This document shows, one piece after another, positions 3,358 to 27,887 of a stretch of DNA of 28,590 nt. The stretch is from positions 1-28,590 of the forward strand of contig JAKASS010000010.1 in the NCBI GenBank assembly GCA_021818905.1, in the 5' to 3' direction. A program made the position numbers and the translations under genes. Under the pieces are notes generated by a model. That model searched no databases. It saw nothing but the letters and a program-made list of their open reading frames with translations, and was not told the DNA's origin. Each line of letters begins with the position of its first letter. The first letter of the stretch is position 1. The DNA comes from Nanobdellota archaeon. GTDB lineage: Archaea; Nanobdellota; Nanobdellia; Parvarchaeales; Parvarchaeaceae.

Positions 3358-4035
3358 TTAAGCCTTAGCCTTCTTTAAATCGTCTATAAGGTCCCTGAGT
3401 TCTTTTATGCTGTCGCTTATTGTAGGAATAAGTCTGTCTATTACTTTTTCGAAGGCTTGAAGTTCGACGTTCACATCAGATAACGTCTTGTTGTATTCTT
3501 CTGTCTTGCCCAGCATAACGTTTTGTAGCCCATCGATTCGCTGGCCTAACTTGTTCATCTGGTCTTTCAACATGTCAAGGCTTCCGGATGTATTTTTAAG
3601 ACTATTTTTGACCGAATTTAGGTCCGCAGAAGAGGCCTCCCATTTTTCTTCTATTATCTGCTCCAAGACTTGCTGTATCGTATCCAATGCCTGGTCGCTA
3701 AGTCCGGATTGCTTCGAAGCGTCCTGCCTGTTTAATTGCACTGGTTGCATCTGCTGCATGCTTAATTGCGCTGGCGCCGGAGAATCCTCTCTTTGGGGAA
3801 TGCTGAAATTAGTCATAGCCGGCTGCGACCTTGATTGAGGCTGGGCTGCAGGCTGTGCTTGTTGATTGTTGCCGGCACTCGCGTTTAATAATGCGTTCTT
3901 TATCGCGGTGCTGTCGTATCCCTGTTGTCTGAGGTTATCGATTATGTCCTGTTCGCTCATCCCGCTCTTGACCATCGAAGAAACGTCGGGAACGTCACTC
4001 GCATCTTTTTTCTTGAACGCATCTAAAAGACTCAT
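3358..4035 (-). CDS. Coiled-coil protein with N-terminal UBA-like helical domain
   Basis: The 225-residue soluble protein has three parts. Residues about 15-52 (VPDVSSMVKSGMSEQDIID, then LRQQGYDSTAIKNALLNA) look like a small three-helix UBA-like fold. Residues about 53-105 are a Gln/Pro/Ala/Met-rich linker. Residues about 110-222 are a long amphipathic coiled coil ending in a lysine-rich tail. No signal peptide or membrane helix is present. It starts 3 bases after the stop of the coiled-coil gene 4039-4407, so the two are surely co-expressed and may form a heteromeric rod. Pairs of such coiled-coil proteins recall archaellum accessory FlaC/D/E proteins, but I cannot show homology. The function is unknown. 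Confidence 0.7.
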   Translation of the reverse strand: MSLLDAFKKKDASDVPDVSSMVKSGMSEQDIIDNLRQQGYDSTAIKNALLNASAGNNQQAQPAAQPQSRSQPAMTNFSIPQREDSPAPAQLSMQQMQPVQLNRQDASKQSGLSDQALDTIQQVLEQIIEEKWEASSADLNSVKNSLKNTSGSLDMLKDQMNKLGQRIDGLQNVMLGKTEEYNKTLSDVNVELQAFEKVIDRLIPTISDSIKELRDLIDDLKKAKA

Positions 4036-12185: not shown

Positions 12186-12835
12186 CAGCTGGTCGTGGCC
12201 TCCAGTTTCCTCTTTATGAACTTGAGCGATACTATCGTGTCCCTTTCGTTGTCTCCCAACCTCTGCTCTATGAAGCCGGCCTGTGCCCCCCATTGCGGTA
12301 TCCTGAGATTTTCCAGTGCGTTGATGCGCCGGTTTACCTTGCTTATCTCATGAAGAAGTTTTCGCATGGCATTTTCTTTCTCGGCTACCTCTATAAGCAG
12401 GGTAAAGAGTTTAGAATAAACCTTTTTCATGTCATCTATAGGCGCTGGAGACGAGATTGCATCGAAAAACTCGTGCGTTAATGCTGACTTGTCTGCCGTT
12501 ATATCCGAGACCCTTACCCCCATTACGTTATTCGCTTTTACGTTTACTTCCAGCCTGGGGCGTTCGGCTGCCGCCCGCTCTAGTTCTACGCTTCCGCTCT
12601 CTATCTCGGCTATCTTTGTGGTCTCTACCGCAAGGCTTACGGCGGAAAGCATGTTCTCCGGCATCAATGCCAATTTCCTGGCCATCTCAAGAAAGGCCAT
12701 TACAAGGCTAGAACGCTTTACCTTGAGCAGTTTTATCCCGCGTTGTGCTATGGAAATCCTACGTTTGGTCTTCATTAGCTCTAATCTTGTAGTCCTGACC
12801 GATGACAAGTCAACTGCCTGCTTTCCATTTTCCAT
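12185..12835 (-). CDS. atpD: A-type ATP synthase subunit D (central rotor shaft)
   Basis: The 216-residue protein is two long helices forming the rotor shaft inside A3B3. The N-terminal [20 protein letters not shown] followed by [14 protein letters not shown] (about 14-47) is the typical D signature. The C-terminal helix contains [11 protein letters not shown] (about 167-177), also conserved (RRINALE). The start at 12835 lies 26 bases inside the end of atpB, so translation is coupled. It is followed by H. Confidence 0.95.
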
Positions 12836-14195
12836 ATTTCTTTACGAACTCTTCCCTTACGCGTTTTATCTCCCTTATGTCTACTCCGCTGAGAATGTCC
12901 CACCCTGAGCTTAAAGTATCTACTATCTTCCTGTCTTCATCATAGCCTTGCCCTATAAAGCCGGATTCAAATCTATCGGCTAGGTCTAAGAATTCCTTAT
13001 CAGTCTTTGACAACGCCTCTTCCCCGACTATTGCTACAAGACTTCTTAGGTCTTTTCCTCTTGCATATGCGGCATATAGCTCATCTGCTAATCCTCTGTG
13101 GTCTTCCCTTGTGCTATCTTTGCCTATTCCATTATTCATCAATCTCGAAAGGGACAGAAGTACGTCTATGTTCGGATATACCCCTCTTCTTTGCAGGTCA
13201 CGGCTAAGCACGATCTGGCCCTCATTTATGTAGCCCGTAAGGTCCGCTATGGGATGAGTTATATCGTCTGCTGGCATCGTCAATATGGGTATCTGGGTTA
13301 TCGACCCTGGCTTTCCTATTATCTTGCCCGCCCTTTCGTAGATGGTGGCGAGGTCGGTGTACATGTAACCTGGGTATCCTCGTCTCCCCGGTACTTCTTC
13401 CCTTGCAGATGATACCTCTCTTAGCGCTTCGCAGTAGTTTGTCATGTCTGTCATTATGACAAGGATGTGCATGCCTTCTTCGAAAGCCAGGTATTCGGCA
13501 GTCGTGAGCGCAAGTCTGGGCAGAAGCAGCCTTTCCATGGTCGGCTCGGACGAAAGGTTAAGGAACATGACCGTACGGTCAAGAGCCCCGCTCTCTTCGA
13601 ACTCGTGCTTGAAGAAGTTGGCTTCCTCGCTGTCTATGCCCATGCCACAGAAAACTATCGCAAACTTCTCATTTTTATTGAGTAATTTTGCCTGTCTTGC
13701 TATCTGTACCGCTATCTTATTGTGCTGCATGCCTGATCCTGAGAATATCGGGAGCTTCTGGCCCCTGACAAGTGAATTCATCCCGTCTATCGCTGATATG
13801 CCGGTCTGTATGAATTCAGAAGGCTCTTCCCTGGCGCACGGGTTCATGGCATTCCCGTTTACATCTTTTACCTTTTCACTCACTATGCGCGGGCCCCCGT
13901 CGCGCGGGTTTCCAGTGCCATCAAATACCCTGCCTAGCATATCTGTGCTGACTGCTATTTTAGCTGGCTGGCCGGTAAACCTTACCTTTGTAGTCTCTGC
14001 ACTTGCACCCGCAGTGGTACCAAATACCTGTACTACAGCTAATCCTTCCCTGCTGTCAAGGACCTGTCCTTTCAGGGATTCTCCCGTTTCTAACTTTATC
14101 TCGACCATCTCACCATAAGCGGCATTTTTTACGCCTTCTACGAACATCAGTATGCTGGTTATGCTCTTTACTGTTTTATAATAAACCTCATTCAT
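12810..14195 (-). CDS. atpB: A-type ATP synthase subunit B (regulatory subunit)
   Basis: The roughly 461-residue B subunit alternates with A in the A3B3 head and lacks a true P-loop: [18 protein letters not shown] (about 152-169) replaces it. Other hallmarks are [33 protein letters not shown] and [24 protein letters not shown] at 14204 is also in frame, but ggag lies directly before it. The ATG at 14195 is 9 bases after ggag, so I prefer that start. It overlaps the A stop by 8 bases. Confidence 0.95.
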
Positions 14196-17100
14196 TGTTA
14201 CCACGCTCCTTTATTTTGGAAATCTCTGTTATGGCAGCTTTTACGCTCTTAGCATAAGCTTCTATCTTTTCGTCTTCGACGAACTTGAACTTGGCTATCA
14301 GCTGCTTTGCTTCTACACTTTGCAGTTTCTCTACTGTAACGCCACTTTCTACTGCAACGCTTTCTGCATCGTAAAGGTCCATGACGCATGAAAGCAATAA
14401 TGCCTGTTTCTTCACTGATGAATAAGTGTCTACATCGTCAAAGGCGCTTTGTCTTAGTATGTCTTCCCTTACGGATTTAGCTATATCCAACACCATCTTA
14501 TCCGCTTCCGGCAATGCATCATAGCCTACCAACTGGGCGACTTCGTTTATTTCCGCTTCTCTCTGCAAAAGCTTTATTGTCTTAGTGCGGTTCTTGCTCC
14601 AGTCCTTGTCGACCTTATCGTCAAACCATTTCATTAATGCATCCGCATAGAGGGTATAGCTGTTAAGCCAATTTATCGCGGGAAAATGCCTCCTATTTGC
14701 GAGAGAGCTGTCCAGCGCCCAAAAGACCTTTGTGGCTCTAAGCGTGCTCTGAGAAACTGGTTCGGATATATCGCCGCCGGCCGGAGATACTGCGCCTATA
14801 AGAGTAAGCGAGCCTGTCTTGCCGCTCAAAAGCTTGGCTCTACCTGCTCGTTCATAAAATTCAGATATTTTCCTTGAAAGATATGCTGGATAGCCCTCTT
14901 CACCCGGCATCTCCTCCAATCTGCCTGATATTTCCCTTAAGGCCTCGGCCCATCTAGATGTGCTGTCTGCCATAAGGGCTACATCGTAGCCCATGTCTCT
15001 ATAATATTCTGCGATTGCCGCACCGGTGTAGATACTCGCTTCTCTTGCTGCTACCGGCATATTAGAAGTATTTGCTATCAGAATGGTCCTTTCCATTAAT
15101 GGCTTACCAGTCTTTGGATCTTTCAATTCTGGGAACGTCGTCAATAATTCTGTGGCTTCGTTTCCGCGTTCGCCGCAAGCCACGAAGACTATCACATCGG
15201 CATCTGACCATTTTGCAAGCTGGTGCTGAATTATTGTGTTATGAAGGATAATCCCCCCATTTCCACCAACGAAGTTACTACCACATTCGGGAACTACGAC
15301 ATCGTAAACGTCAAATTCGCCTAGTTCTTCTTCTTTCGTCTTTATCTCATCACAATAGATATAATCCAATGCTTTAGCGAGCGCCTGCATTTTTGTATTC
15401 GCTAATAAAAGCTGGTTGCCGTTTCTTGTGCTTAGCGTATTGACAAACCTCTTAAAAACTGGGGCGGACATCTTTTCTTTTGCAGTAGTGTAGTTGTAAA
15501 TATCTATTCCAGCATGCTTCAATTCCGTGTAATTTGAAAAATCGTGGAAAGCCGATTCTATTACTGTACCAGAAATCGGAACTACGTCTATCGTAGTAGA
15601 ACCTTGTTTAGTGTCATTTACATATCTTTCAAGCTTTTTGGTCTTTTCGCTTTTATTGCCTATCACTGCTGAAAGCGATTTTAAGTTGTTTAAGCTGCTA
15701 ATAAAAACTCTATAATAAGTGACTCCATTTACTTTTTTACTGCTTAAAGTATGTATTATCCCGAACCTAGTCAGTATGTAGGATAGCTGGGTCTTAAGAA
15801 CGCTACTGGCGGTGCAAAATTCAGCAGTCGAGTTAGAGAAAGTCCCGTCTCCTTCGTAATAGGCACTTAAAAACGCGGCAAGTGCTTTATTGCTTGAACG
15901 GAGAATAATATTAGGTACTGCCTTTTCGTGGGATGCCTTGCCTGCGCCAATCGCTTTAATGAAACTTGCTATTATTTTAGAGAATAGTAACACGTTGGGT
16001 GTTCTGTTGTGAGGATATTCTTTTTTCCCGTTTATAGAAAACAATGTCTTTGACAACTGCAGGAATCTGTCTAAAAGTCTTTCATCGAGGTTTGTGAACA
16101 CTATGGTGTTCGCACCTCTTGTATATCCTTCAGAAACGTAATAGCCTAGAAATTCCGCAAGTTCCGTAGAGACTTTGGGAGGCATTGTTATTTCGTTGCT
16201 TCTACGATTTCCTATAAATGTAGCCGGAATGGGCGGGTTAACGCCTATGGCATCATAAATCGTCTTTATCCAGTCCAATTTCAAAGAAGCGTTGTTAGTA
16301 CGCGAAATAGTATCGACGATTAATTTTTTAAGGGCGATTTTTATCTTCTTAGCTCTGATGGTCTTAATCGCATTTTTGCATCCCTGAACTACATCCGCGT
16401 CTTTGGTTCTTGCATCCTTTGATAAATACATGTAAGAATCTATTAGAGCATCGTCATTATCTATATCAAGTTTTCTTGCAGAACATATAAAATCTCCTTG
16501 CTTCAGGTCTTTTGCTTGAGTCTCTACTATCTCCCCCGTTTCAGATATTTTAAAAAGTTTATGAACTGGAGTTACCTTCACTTCTCTGCCGGTTCGTGTC
16601 TTTATCCTTATAAGACCGTTGCTTTTTCCTTTGTAAATTAGTTTTGCGCTGCTTTTTTTAATGCCCTCGTTATAAAATGAATACAGATCTACTCCTTTTG
16701 TAAGCACGATAAATTCGTCGTTGCCTTTCTTATAAATTGCGCCATTCTTGGCCGCTGAGTCATATATTTCTTTTATCTGAACAAGCTCACCGTTGTGGCT
16801 AAGGACCATTGTATCTGGGGCCACACATTTGCCGCTGCCAAATGGTCCTGGGATCGCAGCCGTGCCACCTTTAGCTATGGGAAAAAGCGTATCGATTATT
16901 CTCTGGCCCGTTATCAATGGGATCTGGGGGGGCATCTTATCTGATACCGGCCTAGATTTACGTACGGGCCATGTTTGTGCAAGCTTTATGTCGACCGTTT
17001 TACCGTCCGCCTGCTTTACTTTAGCCACTATATCGTTTATTGTAAACTTGCCTTCTTCTATCTTTGTGAGTTTTCCCGAAACGCCAGGCGGTATCATTAT

Positions 17101-17538
17101 CTTGTGATCGACTAGACTGGTCTCTTTTACGCTCCCTATTATCTGGCTCTCTTTTACGTCCACGCCGACTTCGACCATGGGCTTGAACGTCCACTCCTTC
17201 TTTGCATCAAGAGACGGGACGTTTATCCCTCTGGCGATGAAATCACCGGTCTGCGCTTTGATCTTATCCAAAGGCCTTTGAGTACCGTCGAATATCGAAC
17301 CTATCACTCCCGGCCCTAGAACGACGCTAAGGGGCATGTTTGTGTTTTCTGCGCCTTCGCCTACCCTTACTCCAGTCGTGTCTTCATATACTTGGACTAT
17401 CGAATCGCCCCCGTTTATCTTTATGATCTCTCCAAGGAGCTGGGCATCGCCTACACGAACGATGTCGTTCATCTTTGGATCCTTCAGTCCTTTGACTGTC
17501 ATGACTGGTCCGGAAACCCTCGTTATTGTGCCTTCCAT
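14188..17538 (-). CDS. atpA: A-type ATP synthase catalytic subunit A, interrupted by an intein
   Basis: The 1116-residue precursor comprises 237 residues of N-extein, a 530-residue intein and 349 residues of C-extein. Spliced, it gives a 586-residue catalytic subunit, the normal length. The N-extein ends in the P-loop GPFGSGK, and the C-extein begins [20 protein letters not shown] and holds [12 protein letters not shown], with the catalytic Glu, and EDYPAY-like [20 protein letters not shown]. Splicing is required for ATP binding because the intein splits the P-loop Lys-Thr pair. The start at 17538 overlaps F by 16 bases and the stop overlaps B by 8. All expected motifs of the extein are intact. 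Confidence 0.97.
15238..16827 (-). mobile_element. Intein with LAGLIDADG endonuclease at the VMA-b (P-loop) site
   Basis: The intein runs from Cys238 ([13 protein letters not shown], block A) to Asn767 ([10 protein letters not shown], block G), with Thr as the +1 residue. Block B is TPVHKLF with the TxxH motif (intein residues 86-92). LGYYVSEGY (227-235) and LSAYYEGDG (320-328) are the two dodecapeptide motifs; each keeps an acidic catalytic residue (Glu, Asp). Block F is [20 protein letters not shown]. All splicing residues (Cys1, His, penultimate His, Asn, +1 Thr) are present. The stretch [20 protein letters not shown] followed by VTPVHKLF is strikingly like the VMA inteins of Thermoplasma and Pyrococcus, which sit at the same site as I recall them. 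Both splicing and homing look potentially active. Confidence 0.95.
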
Positions 17539-17861
17539 TTCCCCTTTTCAAGTATATCAAAACCCAAAACGCGCTTTGCTAGGCCCCTTACTGATTCTTC
17601 CCTATTTGACATTGTCTGTGTAGGTATGAATATGACTATCGGCTGGGTAGTCGTCTCTAGCATTCTAAGTTGGGAAGAAGATAAAGACTGCTTAATCGTA
17701 TCTTCTACCATTACTAAATCATGCTCGTGCTTATTTATAACGTTTATCAATGTCTCTGACGCGGTCTTTTGGTTTACTATAAACACATCTTTTATCCCTA
17801 ACACCTTAAATCCTAACGCGAGTGGGCGGTCGCTGATGACCGCTATCTTATTGAAGGGCAT
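17523..17861 (-). CDS. atpF: A-type ATP synthase subunit F
   Basis: I chose the ATG at 17861 ([20 protein letters not shown]), preceded by aaggagg at 6 bases. A longer in-frame form to 17915 would only add out-of-frame atpC sequence. The 112-residue Rossmann-like protein joins D on the central stalk. Family features are the N-terminal [18 protein letters not shown] and [12 protein letters not shown] (about 75-86). It overlaps C by 14 bases and A by 16. Confidence 0.93.
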
Positions 17862-18906
17862 ACACGACCTCCTTGACAGCATTAAGAAACGGGACTTTTG
17901 CTGCGTCAAGTCCATAGTATTTTGTGAACCAAATCGTCCTTAGAAGATCTTTCTCCAACTCCAGTCGCAATATAAAATACATAATGAAACCAAGCGAAAT
18001 GCCAAGGTCCTTGAAAAGCCTAAGGTATTTCTTATGAAGTTCTCTGTTCAAAACTATTTCAAAATATGACACCAAGCCTTTTTCTTTGTATGCGCTTATC
18101 GCATCGTCCATTTTTAAACCTGTGATTTCCGGTATGGATCCTGGACCATTCGTAGCTATCTCGGCTATCTTTGTTATAGGTATCTTGCCGCCCTTTATCA
18201 GGTTCTCTTCCAGGTTGCCGCTCAAGCCTGCGCTTTTAAGCGCTGTTATTATATTGCGTATGTCTATGCTGTCAATAAGAAATTCACGCACCGGCCATTC
18301 ACTTCCCTCATAAAATCTGAATTTATCAAGCAACGAATTATGATAGTTTATCTCCAGCACGACGACCATTTTCGATATGTCCTGGCTTTTTTTGACCTCT
18401 TCTACGTACTTAGACAAGATAGCGCCATAACCATATTTGAACAGCGCATTGACTACCCCTTCTACCGAGTTTTCTTTCTCTATATTAAGGTAATCTTCTT
18501 TTGACATCACCCCGCTGAAAGTCCCTGCGGCCGATACGTGGTTTATAAGGAGCAGAAAATCGTTTTGGGAAACGGCATAGCCCAGCGTCTTAGAGGAAAG
18601 TATAAGCTTTATATTTTCTATGTCCCATTTGCTGATATAAGCCCGGATAAACGAACCGGTTGCTGTAGGCAATGAACCAGTTGCAGTGCGTGTTAGCCTG
18701 GCGAGGTGAGCATTCAGAACGACATCTATAAGGTCTGGTGTTTTATAAAGCGCTGAAAGATTATTTATCTCGACCCCGTAACTGGTGTCCTTAAGTACTT
18801 CAAGCATGTCCTTCCCGCCCAAGATGTCGTCTATCTGTGACCGGCTTAGAAAATTGGACGACTCGGCCTTTAGCTTCCCATAAACGCCGGCATACGTAGA
18901 ATCCAT
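17848..18906 (-). CDS. atpC: A-type ATP synthase subunit C (AC39 family)
   Basis: The 352-residue helical funnel connects the K ring to the D/F shaft. Typical features are the N-terminal YAGVYGKLKAESSNFLSRSQ, KWDIENIKLILSSK (about 92-105), FEIVLNRELHKKYLRLFKDL (about 279-298), and a C-terminal LRTIWFTKYYGLDAAKVPF. Length fits the family. The ATG at 18906 shares one base with the E stop (TAATG). It is soluble with no signal peptide. Confidence 0.95.
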   Translation of the reverse strand: MDSTYAGVYGKLKAESSNFLSRSQIDDILGGKDMLEVLKDTSYGVEINNLSALYKTPDLIDVVLNAHLARLTRTATGSLPTATGSFIRAYISKWDIENIKLILSSKTLGYAVSQNDFLLLINHVSAAGTFSGVMSKEDYLNIEKENSVEGVVNALFKYGYGAILSKYVEEVKKSQDISKMVVVLEINYHNSLLDKFRFYEGSEWPVREFLIDSIDIRNIITALKSAGLSGNLEENLIKGGKIPITKIAEIATNGPGSIPEITGLKMDDAISAYKEKGLVSYFEIVLNRELHKKYLRLFKDLGISLGFIMYFILRLELEKDLLRTIWFTKYYGLDAAKVPFLNAVKEVVYALQ

Positions 18907-22739: not shown

Positions 22740-23765
22740 TTAAATGCCTCCGGCACCGCCAAACGACGACGTAGCGAAGAAGGTAGATACTCCAAATCTC
22801 ACGGCAAAGAATATCCCCAGCCCAATAAGAACAAATATGGGTATAGATCTTAGACCATCCCTAGCATTGCCAGTATTCAGTATGCCCTGAAGCAATGCGC
22901 TTGCCGTTGTCGTTATAAGAACATTAATAGTTGCAACCACAAGAATTAGTGTACCGGGAATGTTAGGCAAGCTAAAAGAAGATAGAACGCCCAACCCAGC
23001 GGATGGGACCACGGTCGAAGAAGACGAAAGGCTGCCGATGCTGTCCAATATTGTTATAAGAAACGAAGATACGCCATAAAGAAGCGGGGCAGCTATAGTA
23101 GATGCCATAAAAATGAAAAGCGCGTAGCTTCTTACCTGCGCCTTCATGTCATTTCGTATACTTTCGTTTTGCAATATGTTTGTCGCGAGGTTTTCAAGTA
23201 CCACATGGAGCTCTGCGCCAGACCTTAAAGCTTCTCCTATTATCCTCATAGTATCCTTAAAGAATTTAGATGTCGTTCTATTTGCCATCTCGGAAAGGGC
23301 GTCTTTAAAATCTTTCCCGCCCTGTACTTCTATAGCCGCATGAGTGAGCAATAGGTTTAGCTTGCCGAACTCTGGTTTTATCGAAGCTAGGAAGGAACTT
23401 TCAGGTATCATGCCCGCCCTCAAATTAGCTGCCGTGAGCATAAGCATATCCGGTAAAACCTTTTCTATTTGCACGGCTGCTGCATCGGCCAAAAAGAGAT
23501 AGATCGATTTTATAAGAAAATACGCCGCAAAAAATCCTGCCGGCACTGCGACTACGGCGAAAATTGCGCTGTGAGAAAACAGGAAAGTTAAAATGCCGGC
23601 AATGGCCGCTACTATGAAAAGCATCAGGACAATGCTTCCTATCAAGCCTAAAAAATCTGTCGTCTGGACTTGTGCGTATATCATACTTTCTTCCAAGGAA
23701 AGCCGCAGTTTGCGCGGCAAAAACATCGATAATTTTTCTATTCCGTTTGCTGGTGCGTCTGCCAT
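22740..23765 (-). CDS. GspF/TadC (FlaJ)-type pilus membrane protein, second copy
   Basis: The 341-residue type II/IV secretion F-family protein forms the membrane platform of a pilus or archaellum-like machine. Two helices lie at about 38-85. A cytosolic T2SSF domain at about 100-205 carries IEKVLPDMLMLTAANLRAGM and RIIGEALRSGAELHVVLENL. Helices follow at about 215-235, 270-290 and 305-325. MADAPANGIEKL is a soluble start. It is downstream of a related gene by 6 bases, forming a tandem pair behind the ATPase. The tandem arrangement resembles Tad systems (TadB/TadC). Confidence 0.85.
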   Translation of the reverse strand: MADAPANGIEKLSMFLPRKLRLSLEESMIYAQVQTTDFLGLIGSIVLMLFIVAAIAGILTFLFSHSAIFAVVAVPAGFFAAYFLIKSIYLFLADAAAVQIEKVLPDMLMLTAANLRAGMIPESSFLASIKPEFGKLNLLLTHAAIEVQGGKDFKDALSEMANRTTSKFFKDTMRIIGEALRSGAELHVVLENLATNILQNESIRNDMKAQVRSYALFIFMASTIAAPLLYGVSSFLITILDSIGSLSSSSTVVPSAGLGVLSSFSLPNIPGTLILVVATINVLITTTASALLQGILNTGNARDGLRSIPIFVLIGLGIFFAVRFGVSTFFATSSFGGAGGI

Positions 23766-23771
23766 ATTGAA

Positions 23772-24671
23772 TCAGACTCCGACGGCAGGACGTCTGCTGC
23801 CCACCATGCCCATAAAGAACACTTCGAATATTATCAAGAAAGGAGGTATTATGTAAATTATATATATGACATCGAAATGGGCTATCGAGCCGAGTATTAT
23901 AAAAACCGACATCCCGAGGCTCGGCAAGACTACAGAAACCAGCATGTACATCATCAAAAGCGGGGTAAGCTCGGCCGCATACGCCCTCATGTCGGATTGC
24001 TGTTTTTTTATCAGCATGTCATTTATCAGAGTAAGCGTGCCATGTATGTCGGTACCGGACCTTATTGAATTAACCAGTATGTCTATCGCACGTTTCAGCG
24101 ACTGCGAGGGTACCCTTCTTGAAAGTCTTGTCAGCGCTTCGTCTTGCGGTACTCCGGATTGTATCTCCTCTACTGTCACTTTGAATTCGGCGGATACTAT
24201 GCCATAATCCCCATTTGAGACATCGAGCAAGGCGTTAAATATCGGCACTCCCGCCCCTACTTTTATCATCAGTTCCCTTACTGCGAAGACTACCTTCTCG
24301 TCTATCCGGGCCCTTCTCCTTGAGGCCTGAAGCTTTGGGTAATTAACGAAATATACAAAATATATAGCTGGTACGAAGATCACCAAAAGGACAAGTATAC
24401 CGGTAAGCTGCGAAGTCAAAAGGCCCCTATGTATCGCAACGATTGCGAGCAGGACCGAAACCGCAAAAAGAATCCCGACCAGCATAATTGATAGGAATAT
24501 GCCGGCCGCTATGTAATCAACACCGGGAATGTTTATACCTCCCTCCAAAAGCGAATTGTCTATGCCCGGCGAAATGTTTCTCAGATAGAATGCGATGCGC
24601 CTGAACCTTCTGCCGAAAAATAGCGCCTTCTCTTGACTTACCATTATAGATGGCATTACCCTTTTTTCCAT
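23772..24671 (-). CDS. GspF/TadC (FlaJ)-type pilus membrane protein, first copy
   Basis: I chose the ATG at 24671, one base after the ATPase stop (TAAAATG); an extension upstream would overlap the ATPase. The 299-residue protein has paired helices at about 53-115. A cytosolic T2SSF domain follows (VVFAVRELMIKVGAGVPIFN; RAIDILVNSIRSGTDIHGTL at about 185-205), then C-terminal helices (MLVSVVLPSLGMSVFIILGS; YIIYIIPPFLIIFEVFFMG). It works with the ATPase and the following paralogue as the inner platform for pilin assembly. Confidence 0.87.
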   Translation of the reverse strand: MEKRVMPSIMVSQEKALFFGRRFRRIAFYLRNISPGIDNSLLEGGINIPGVDYIAAGIFLSIMLVGILFAVSVLLAIVAIHRGLLTSQLTGILVLLVIFVPAIYFVYFVNYPKLQASRRRARIDEKVVFAVRELMIKVGAGVPIFNALLDVSNGDYGIVSAEFKVTVEEIQSGVPQDEALTRLSRRVPSQSLKRAIDILVNSIRSGTDIHGTLTLINDMLIKKQQSDMRAYAAELTPLLMMYMLVSVVLPSLGMSVFIILGSIAHFDVIYIIYIIPPFLIIFEVFFMGMVGSRRPAVGV

Positions 24672-24672
24672 T

Positions 24673-26193
24673 TTAGAATATTTCCAGCTGTGCTGGGTCG
24701 CCATCAGCTTCGACTATTTTCATAAGTTCGTCTTTTCTCGTATAATATGTACTGGCCATCAAGCCTATTTTGTTAACTACATTAACGTCATGCGCGACCA
24801 TCCAGTTCAGCACAGTTTCTTTTTCTGCCAAGTCAGATATTATTTCTTCGTGAGTCAAACCTGAATAAAGCTCTAGTTTACTTTCAATCTTCTGCGATGC
24901 ATTTACCGTCCTTTCTATCACATCTGACCTAGGACGCCATTCAAAAAGATTGTTAGTCTTCAACTCTAGCTTGCCCGAGACGTAATGCTCTGTCAGCTCT
25001 GCCAATTCCAGCACTCTTCTGAAGCCCTCTCGTCTATGCCTGAATGCGGTGACTATGAGATCCAGCGCAGAAACTTCTATGTCCGGGAGGTCTATCGGTT
25101 CAGAAAGCAGCCGCTTTATTACCTGCTGCGCGGTTTCAGCGTGCAATGTAGCATAAACGGAGTGGCCAGTCATCAACGCTTCGAAAAGAGTCTGTGCATC
25201 GTCTTTCTTTCTTATCTCACCTACGACCAGTCTGTCTGGCCTCATCCTAAGGGAGTTTATCAGTAAATCTAACATGGTGATTTGGCCTTTGCCTTCAGAA
25301 TTGGCCTGCCTGGTGAGCAGAGGGACCCAGTGTAAAAAGCTTGGTAGTGTAAGCTCGCTCGTGTCCTCTATTGTTATTATCCTCTGGTTTGGAGGAATAA
25401 AAGGCATAAAGACGTTTAGAAGGCTTGTTTTACCAGATGCTGTTCCGCCGGTCACTATCATAGAAAGCTCATACTGTATAGCCTGCCATACGAATGCGAC
25501 CAATTGTGGCGTAAGTGTCTTTAGCTTTAGAAAGTCGGTTATGGTCCAGGGATCTGCCCTAAACTTTCTTATGTCCAAAGTATTCCCGTGTGTAGATATC
25601 GGGAAAAGAGTAGCGTTGATACGGTCGCCGTTGATAAGCTGGGCATCAAGCAGAGGAGACAATGTAGTTATCTGCCTGCCTACTTTTCTTGCAATCTGTT
25701 CGGCGTAGTTTTCTATCCTGTTTTCGGTGTCTATCCTTATGTTCGTCTCGAGCCAGCCATATTTCCTGTGGTAAACCATGACCATGGTTTTTGAATCATT
25801 AACGACTACCTCTTCCAGGTTCTGGTCCGAGTCTAGTATCTCTAAAACTCCAAGACCAAACATCTCGTGCAGAAGCGTAGCTGAGAGCTCTACATAGCCT
25901 ACATCCGTCAAGCCCGGTATGATCTCCTTCAATTTTTTATCTACTAAGTCAAGAAATTCTACTCTAAGGTTTGCATTGCTGCTTTCTGAAAGCACCTGTA
26001 TCTTCTGTGGAAATTCCCTTATCAGCTGCGTCCTTACTTCTGTAAGTATCGCGCGTGTACCGGCATCGACTATCGGCACATCCGCGGAATAGACCATTGT
26101 AAACTTGCTGCTTACCCGTAATATCCTTACCTTTGAGACGATACCGTCAGAAATTACATTGTAGGTGTCTATCTGCTCCTCTTGGGCTTCCAT
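24673..26193 (-). CDS. Type II/IV secretion ATPase (FlaI/TadA/VirB11-like)
   Basis: The 506-residue hexameric ATPase powers pilin assembly. The N-terminal domain spans about 1-165. DAQLINGDRINATLFPIS (183-200) leads into the nucleotide-binding domain. The Walker A is GGTASGKTS (249-257) and the Asp box is IITIEDTSEL (272-281). The Walker B is RPDRLVVGEIR (318-328) and the His box is YATLHAET (347-354). The ASGKTS and EIR forms are typical of archaeal FlaI/TadA types. A TATA box at 26213-26228 gives a leaderless start at 26193. It heads the operon with the two GspF/TadC genes. Confidence 0.92.
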   Translation of the reverse strand: MEAQEEQIDTYNVISDGIVSKVRILRVSSKFTMVYSADVPIVDAGTRAILTEVRTQLIREFPQKIQVLSESSNANLRVEFLDLVDKKLKEIIPGLTDVGYVELSATLLHEMFGLGVLEILDSDQNLEEVVVNDSKTMVMVYHRKYGWLETNIRIDTENRIENYAEQIARKVGRQITTLSPLLDAQLINGDRINATLFPISTHGNTLDIRKFRADPWTITDFLKLKTLTPQLVAFVWQAIQYELSMIVTGGTASGKTSLLNVFMPFIPPNQRIITIEDTSELTLPSFLHWVPLLTRQANSEGKGQITMLDLLINSLRMRPDRLVVGEIRKKDDAQTLFEALMTGHSVYATLHAETAQQVIKRLLSEPIDLPDIEVSALDLIVTAFRHRREGFRRVLELAELTEHYVSGKLELKTNNLFEWRPRSDVIERTVNASQKIESKLELYSGLTHEEIISDLAEKETVLNWMVAHDVNVVNKIGLMASTYYTRKDELMKIVEADGDPAQLEIF

Positions 26194-26369: not shown

Positions 26370-27887
26370 CTACGATTGACTTCCGTTGACAAAAATTGTG
26401 CCTGGTGGGAAGGAGTTTACATCCCCTAGGGTGACGTCTTTGTCCGTAGAACTTACGCCGAAATTTATATTAAGATTAATACTAGCGCCATTACTGCCGA
26501 CGGCAAGTGTTATGTCAATGAACGAAGGCAGGCCATTTGAGTCCGATATGCACGCTCTGCCAGTTAAATTTAACAAAGAGGAAGTCGCATTTACATAAAA
26601 AAGACTGCAATCATTTCCGTTATAGTTTACATTGTTTACGAAAGTAAAGGTTGGAAACGATTCAGATTGCGGGGAATTAGAGTTGGAACCAGAATTGAAA
26701 ATGCTTGTCAATAACCTTGGAAGATTAAAAAGCTGACCAAGTATCGAGCGATTCGCATTTGAACTGTTTATATTCAATAGTTCTTGTGTGATGTTCTGTG
26801 TAGTCGGCTGGTAATCACATTGAAAAGCGAAGTTCTGTGAAGAATTAAGGTTGTCACATATAGTAGTTCCCGAGCTGTTGTAAAGGATCGTAAATTTTAG
26901 GTTGCTTGGCAGATTAAGACTGCTAGAATTTGAGTTATTTGACTTGCCCCTAAGAGAACTTAAAATGCTACTGATTTGCGATAGATCTATGTTGAAATCT
27001 ATTCTTATTGGATCTCCTAGTTTAGTTACGGAGAGCGACAGCGGCAAAGAAAATTGTAATGGGATATTCGACAACGATAGGCCTACGCCCCCGTTAAAGG
27101 TAGTATTCTCATTTGGGCCCGTCAAGAAGTAATAGTCCGATAGGTTTTCTAGACCGGCGGAACTGGTTTGATTTTGATAAGACAAGGAAACCGGGTTGGC
27201 CGCCACCGTAGTAGTAGAATACGTCGGCACTGAAGAAAGTAGACTTGTATTGAATACCGTAAAGAACGCAAGTAAAATTATCATAACCGCAATTCCTATA
27301 GGCAGGCCAACGGTCCTGTACCAAAACGATGGTGCATGGTTTACGTTTTTCTTCGGTCTGTTGGAAAGAGTTTTTACTGCGCTTGGTAATATGAACCTTA
27401 GAGCTATAAACGCGGATCCCAATACTATAAAAATTATGTCCATCGATACGATTACCGATGTCATCGGTGACGCTATAGTAGACACCAGGCCGCTTATGGA
27501 AGAAGCTGATAAACCACCGATCTTAGACGTAACAAAAGGCAGGACGTAATCCAATATTACGTAAATCATCGCAATAGAAACAGCGGACAAAGCGACTATT
27601 TCGGTGCCGACTTTTGACAGACCGGAATATTCTTTGCTGCCAAAAAATATCAATGCCGCACCAGCTATGGCAATCAAACCCGCCATGAAAATTCCGGCAG
27701 TTGAAATCCAAAGACCTACCAAACCGGCAAGAAGCGCATTGTGAGTAGCCGAACTAACAAGATTTGAAAAACTTCCAGATGAAAGCAGGTGCGAAGCGAA
27801 CAGCGCGTATAGAGTTACAAAAAGAGGCAGGCTGAAGATTATAAACAGGTAACCAAATACTCTTTCGGCCCCATGCAGTATATCCAT
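26370..27887 (-). CDS. Polytopic membrane protein with large sequon-rich ectodomain
   Basis: The family of this 505-residue protein is not recognised. Four to five membrane helices fill the N-terminal half: about 12-34, 50-82, 93-117, 142-170 and 193-213. From about 215 to the end is an extracytoplasmic domain very rich in Asn, Ser and Thr with many N-glycosylation sequons (NQT, NLS, NTT, NSS, NAS, NGS) and four Cys (CDN, CDYQ, NDCSL, RACIS). It lies upstream of the pilus ATPase operon on the same strand, with a 176-base gap that holds the ATPase TATA box, so it need not be co-transcribed. It may be a surface or pilus-associated protein; that is inference from position only. Confidence 0.65.
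   Translation of the reverse strand: MDILHGAERVFGYLFIIFSLPLFVTLYALFASHLLSSGSFSNLVSSATHNALLAGLVGLWISTAGIFMAGLIAIAGAALIFFGSKEYSGLSKVGTEIVALSAVSIAMIYVILDYVLPFVTSKIGGLSASSISGLVSTIASPMTSVIVSMDIIFIVLGSAFIALRFILPSAVKTLSNRPKKNVNHAPSFWYRTVGLPIGIAVMIILLAFFTVFNTSLLSSVPTYSTTTVAANPVSLSYQNQTSSAGLENLSDYYFLTGPNENTTFNGGVGLSLSNIPLQFSLPLSLSVTKLGDPIRIDFNIDLSQISSILSSLRGKSNNSNSSSLNLPSNLKFTILYNSSGTTICDNLNSSQNFAFQCDYQPTTQNITQELLNINSSNANRSILGQLFNLPRLLTSIFNSGSNSNSPQSESFPTFTFVNNVNYNGNDCSLFYVNATSSLLNLTGRACISDSNGLPSFIDITLAVGSNGASINLNINFGVSSTDKDVTLGDVNSFPPGTIFVNGSQS

Follow-up and report, generated by a model that had tools for sequence, protein, structure and literature searches.

In the window (the whole stretch of DNA analysed, 28,590 nucleotides), the gene for the catalytic A subunit of an A-type ATP synthase, atpA, is interrupted by what is very probably a class 1 LAGLIDADG intein of the VMA-b site, one that splices, homes, has recently spread among Parvarchaeota and belongs to a family exchanged with Thermoplasmata. 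The genome that holds it (G000) belongs to a genus that named loci identify as Ca. Parvarchaeota, also labelled Nanoarchaeota in the records and presumably of the ARMAN-4/5 type, in keeping with the DPANN lineage considered in the original prediction. The sample series of the Parvarchaeota assemblies is presumably acid mine drainage, from our reading of the record names.

The atpA precursor is a single ORF of 1116 aa carrying ATP synthase A-subunit domains, within an operon that looks like a complete A-ATPase (I, a D-like ORF, B, A, an F-like ORF, C and E). In the precursor, GPFGSGK runs up to residue 237, followed by C at 238, with HN at 766-767 and T at 768; the junctions 237/238 and 767/768 therefore place the intein at exactly 15238-16827 of the window. 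Empty alleles of sister species, which read GPFGSGK-T[I/V]xQHQLA without interruption, fix this boundary independently. The boundary originally predicted, GPFGSGK/C...HN/T, was thus right to the base. Insertion is into the Walker A motif (GPFGSGK/T, the A-subunit P-loop), just past the Walker A lysine, and the GSGK/T position bears out the earlier assignment: judged by sequence, the insert is a VMA-b intein at a known archaeal site. Archaeal inteins at this site, with both active and degenerate endonucleases, have been published (PMC8966425, PMC2814812), the position being directly behind the Walker A lysine (PMC10643990); VMA-b entries in InBase had come only from Thermoplasmatales and Thermococcales (PMC2814812). 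The insert cannot be a chance feature, because its 1590 bases keep the frame and contain a full HINT and endonuclease fold. Elsewhere in the window, 22740-26193 (minus strand) holds a type IV pilus/archaellum-like set with one T2SSE ATPase and two T2SSF membrane proteins, and two minus-strand ORFs (26370-27887, 505 aa; 3358-4035, 225 aa) gave no Pfam match. Outside the window, the genome has a second LAGLIDADG-type intein, in the MCM helicase (L162:4671-7928, minus strand; G000:C11), likewise inside the ATP-binding motif (GDPG/C...HN/TAKS).

The precursor matched Intein_splicing (PF14890) at 78.7 bits (cut-off 35.8) and LAGLIDADG_3 (PF14528) at 52.5 bits (cut-off 22.5). All class 1 residues claimed beforehand were present (C1, T86/H89, H529-N530 and T at +1), as were both LAGLIDADG acids, E233 in YYVSEGY and D327 in YYEGDGT, and on these residues the insert reads as a class 1 intein (Cys1, His-Asn/Thr) with a LAGLIDADG endonuclease. 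The HINT domain would excise the intein from the A-subunit precursor and ligate GSGK with TIIQ, thereby re-forming the Walker A motif. When the window's assembly (944,665 bases, completeness estimate 100%) was searched with the precursor, no further atpA turned up, and this single copy, together with anatomy and conservation, suggests that ATP synthase function would depend on splicing, as had been argued from the window alone. Coordinates are collected in Table 1.

Table 1. Features of the atpA locus and its intein (window positions; residue numbers within the intein unless stated otherwise)
Feature	Position	Strand	Basis
atpA precursor ORF, A-type ATP synthase catalytic subunit A with intein	14188..17538	-	ORF and Pfam/NCBIfam
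N-extein, precursor residues 1-237, last letters GPFGSGK	16828..17538	-	
VMA-b intein, 530 aa, Cys1 ... His529-Asn530	15238..16827	-	
C-extein, first letters TIIQHQLA, stop codon included	14188..15237	-	
HINT splicing domain, N-terminal part, residues 1-121; block B T86xxH89	16465..16827	-	PF14890 and alignment
Extra accessory module, residues 122-206, helical	16210..16464	-	
LAGLIDADG homing endonuclease, residues 207-385	15673..16209	-	PF14528, model and fold match, lowest dN/dS
Catalytic acid E233 codon, first LAGLIDADG helix	16129..16131	-	
Catalytic acid D327 codon, second LAGLIDADG helix	15847..15849	-	
C-terminal accessory region, residues 386-488, as in T. litoralis VMA intein (PMC8966425)	15364..15672	-	
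HINT domain, C-terminal part, residues 489-530, end GIILHN	15238..15363	-	
Probable homing site, left half (CCAGGACCATTTGGCAGCGGCAAA) and right half	16828..16851 and 15214..15237	-	filled and empty alleles compared
atpB, next operon gene; synonymous-rate control in sister genomes	12810..14204	-	
atpC (AC39 subunit), upstream gene; synonymous-rate control	17848..18906	-	

An AlphaFold2 model of the intein (pLDDT 91.8, 39 aligned sequences) was closest among solved structures to the TliVMA intein of Thermococcus litoralis (PDB 7qss; Z 43.5, rmsd 2.5, 420 aligned), and I-DmoI-type and other endonucleases matched model residues 216-406 (Z about 17-18). TliVMA, 36% identical, shares the insertion site, the HINT and LAGLIDADG domains and the C-terminal accessory domain (PMC8966425), but it comes from a hyperthermophile, has D instead of E in the first LAGLIDADG motif and lacks a module of about 85 residues found here between HINT-N and endonuclease. 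The Pyrococcus horikoshii VMA intein (PDB 7qst; Z 39.4, 353 aligned) has the same site and fold (PMC8966425) and a degenerate endonuclease, whereas that of the window's intein looks intact. In Thermoplasma volcanium, the VMA intein (PDB 4o1s; 41% identity over 163 residues) shares the gene and the HINT fold, but its solved structure is a splicing domain of 170 residues that has no endonuclease, while PI-TkoII (PDB 2cw7; Z 38.8, 456 aligned), an archaeal intein endonuclease with accessory domains, is a DNA polymerase intein of only 23% identity. Thermoplasmata and Micrarchaeota VMA-b inteins (L064-L070, L072, L075, L082-L085 and L106) have the same site, architecture and habitat type, acid mine drainage, at about 40-50% identity, but many lack the module and some have dead endonucleases.

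This module, residues 122-206, is also absent from relatives of about 460 aa. Relatives in Woesearchaeota and Aenigmatarchaeota show sequence features of Cro/C1-type helix-turn-helix domains, and helix-turn-helix profiles matched three of 16 module copies (HTH_3, best 1.6e-4; also HTH_26). A fold search gave XRE-type regulators as best matches (Z 4.6, rmsd 3.0, 59 aligned). The module is thus probably a Cro/C1-type helix-turn-helix, a label we keep tentative because a Pfam search of the window's own copy gave no match and the fold matches are weak.

The relatives search covered 27 genomes with atpA, the window's included. The VMA-b site was filled in 10 and empty in 17, two of the latter belonging to sister genera of the family. 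Intein-free alleles, which the original prediction had proposed to look for within one population, occur here in related genomes; in the closest intein-free relative, G024, the extein is 84% identical and the site uninterrupted. Presence and absence of the intein on the extein tree required at least six changes by parsimony. With the exception of G027, every intein-bearing Parvarchaeota genome whose junction could be resolved reads GPFGSGK/T[IV]IQHQLA, and 12 of the 17 intein-free genomes deviate at the homing-site flanks at the protein level; this difference may reflect target range and is confounded by ancestry. Three genomes of the genus, G027, G013 and G004 (L010, L028, L029), have an atpA that is very divergent, at about 40-45% identity, and branches far off, with a GGFGVGK-type P-loop in G027 and G013, possibly the result of gene replacement.

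A tree of 55 VMA-b inteins united five Parvarchaeota and three Thermoplasmata (WH1.bin9, WH5.bin18 and YS4.bin7) in one clade (support 100/100), whereas extein trees placed these three inside Thermoplasmata (100/99 or better). The intein of WH1.bin9 (L083) is 65% identical to that of the Parvarchaeota genome TL1-3.bin47, with exteins at 61%, and 42% identical to that of the Thermoplasmata genome TL2-1.bin13, with exteins at 85%. A clade of all Parvarchaeota inteins without Thermoplasmata was rejected (p-AU 3.9e-6; 8.5e-6 without L074). Because these inteins form one clade though their exteins belong to separate phyla, we conclude that the VMA-b intein family was exchanged between Parvarchaeota and Thermoplasmata, an exchange borne out only for close relatives of the window's intein. 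The best tree favours the direction from Parvarchaeota to Thermoplasmata (93/98); the alternative, with the five Parvarchaeota rows as one clade, was not rejected (p-AU 0.43). Bins with bacterial labels, namely Aerophobetes, Mahella, Caldiserica and Elusimicrobia (L077, L081, L088, L099, L108 and L127), likewise have VMA-b inteins in their A/V-type ATPase genes. A scan of viral contigs for intein carriers returned only two weak, partial relatives (26-27%).

The window's own intein pair (G000 and G019) had no firm place in the same tree. The comparison of intein and extein trees proposed earlier revealed conflict for the Parvarchaeota/Thermoplasmata clade, and the accompanying idea of transfer from a host or neighbour found support for close relatives only. 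Direct acquisition of the window's own intein from a Thermoplasmatales host or from Micrarchaeota neighbours is in our view doubtful. Outside the genus, the inteins most like it do belong to Micrarchaeota, at about 50% identity, and to Thermoplasmata, at about 45%, from acid mine drainage; against Micrarchaeota L075 it is 50% identical with exteins at 52%, against Parvarchaeota G014 43% with exteins at 64%, and gene transfer between Mia14 (ARMAN-2-type, Micrarchaeota) and Cuniculiplasma is on record (PMC5498576). However, a tree in which it joins the other clade of Parvarchaeota and Thermoplasmata was not rejected by the AU test (p-AU 0.46), the intein comparisons contained no high-identity donor, and L075 lacks the module. 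A separate origin from the other Parvarchaeota inteins, hinted at by the identities, likewise received no support from the AU test. Our literature search, which covered few subscription journals, found no publication on Parvarchaeota ATP synthase inteins (one passing intein mention) and no report of intein exchange between Parvarchaeota, Thermoplasmata and Micrarchaeota.

Between G000 and G012, dN/dS was 0.12 in the endonuclease, the lowest in the intein, compared with 0.19-0.22 for HINT-N and for the module: the endonuclease of the window's lineage is under strong purifying selection. Its intact active site and this selection suggest that it would cut intein-free atpA at the Walker A codons, and that repair of the break would then copy the intein into the cut allele. 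It is improbable that the intein still splices with an endonuclease already inactive and is kept because precise loss is hard. Such decay is widespread in the family, with one or both acids or the whole endonuclease domain missing from 13 of 55 VMA-b inteins, and it occurs within the genus: in G026 a K stands in place of E and some 45 residues are deleted, and in G027 neither catalytic acid is left. In the window's copy, by contrast, both acids are intact and dN/dS is below that of the rest of the intein. Splicing residues were kept in 54 of the 55, the exception being an Elusimicrobia VMA-b intein (L108:4001-5587) that ends in SN/T, not HN/T, its penultimate His replaced. Since splicing residues are kept though endonucleases decay, splicing appears to be preserved independently of the endonuclease, as expected if the host protein depends on it.

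Finally, we compared synonymous differences (pS) of intein and extein in four sister pairs of metagenome-assembled sequences, and in all four the bootstrap intervals did not overlap. For G000-G012, pS was 0.29 (0.23-0.36) in the intein and 0.59 (0.51-0.68) in the extein, over 394 intein and 240 extein codons, G012, the closest intein-bearing relative, being truncated. The other pairs gave 0.28 versus 0.52 (G025-G003), 0.11 versus 0.44 (G003-G026) and 0.06 versus 0.39 (G026-G002). Long neighbour genes of the same pairs (atpB, atpC, atpI and others; short rows, antisense shadow frames among them, were left out) had pS of about 0.36-0.64 or more, matching the extein and not the intein. In control VMA-b pairs, intein pS equalled or exceeded extein pS (e.g., 0.77 versus 0.61 and 0.64 versus 0.48); these controls and small composition differences (little, for instance, between G003 and G026) ruled out codon composition as the source of the low intein divergence. 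As to co-conversion, the pS comparison showed no gradient of synonymous identity in the extein flanks towards the insertion site. Because intein pS lies far below that of both extein and neighbour genes, we conclude that the intein moved between sister Parvarchaeota species after their separation, and the original suggestion that it may still home agrees with this movement and with the selection on its endonuclease. Strictly vertical descent from the genus ancestor, with repeated losses and no recent transfer, is hardly credible: inteins of distant members do roughly follow the extein clades (G000/G012/G019 versus G014/G009/G025/G003/G026) and intein G+C tracks each host's G+C, always slightly lower, but the low intein pS in several sister pairs, controls that show no general slow rate and the grouping of three Thermoplasmata inteins with those of Parvarchaeota all oppose it.

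A splicing and homing intein that spreads between species is a known kind of element; the finding lies in the homing network and the extra, probably helix-turn-helix, module. Transfer of the intein would have taken place between symbiont and host cells. A broader proposal, which we offer tentatively and consider rather unlikely, is that a single endonuclease intein is in circulation at the Walker A site of atpA across an entire acid-mine-drainage community. It would have crossed repeatedly, via cell contact, between Thermoplasmatales hosts and their DPANN symbionts (Parvarchaeota and Micrarchaeota), aided by a gained-and-lost DNA-binding module that may set target range. Lodged in an essential gene that does not itself move, the intein serves as a sensitive marker of gene flow between tiny symbiotic archaea and the cells presumed to be their hosts. 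Every stage of the homing cycle can be seen within one genus: sites without an intein, endonucleases that are intact and under selection, one freshly lost (G026), one fully decayed (G027), and transfer of recent date. The homing model thus becomes testable in uncultured archaea.
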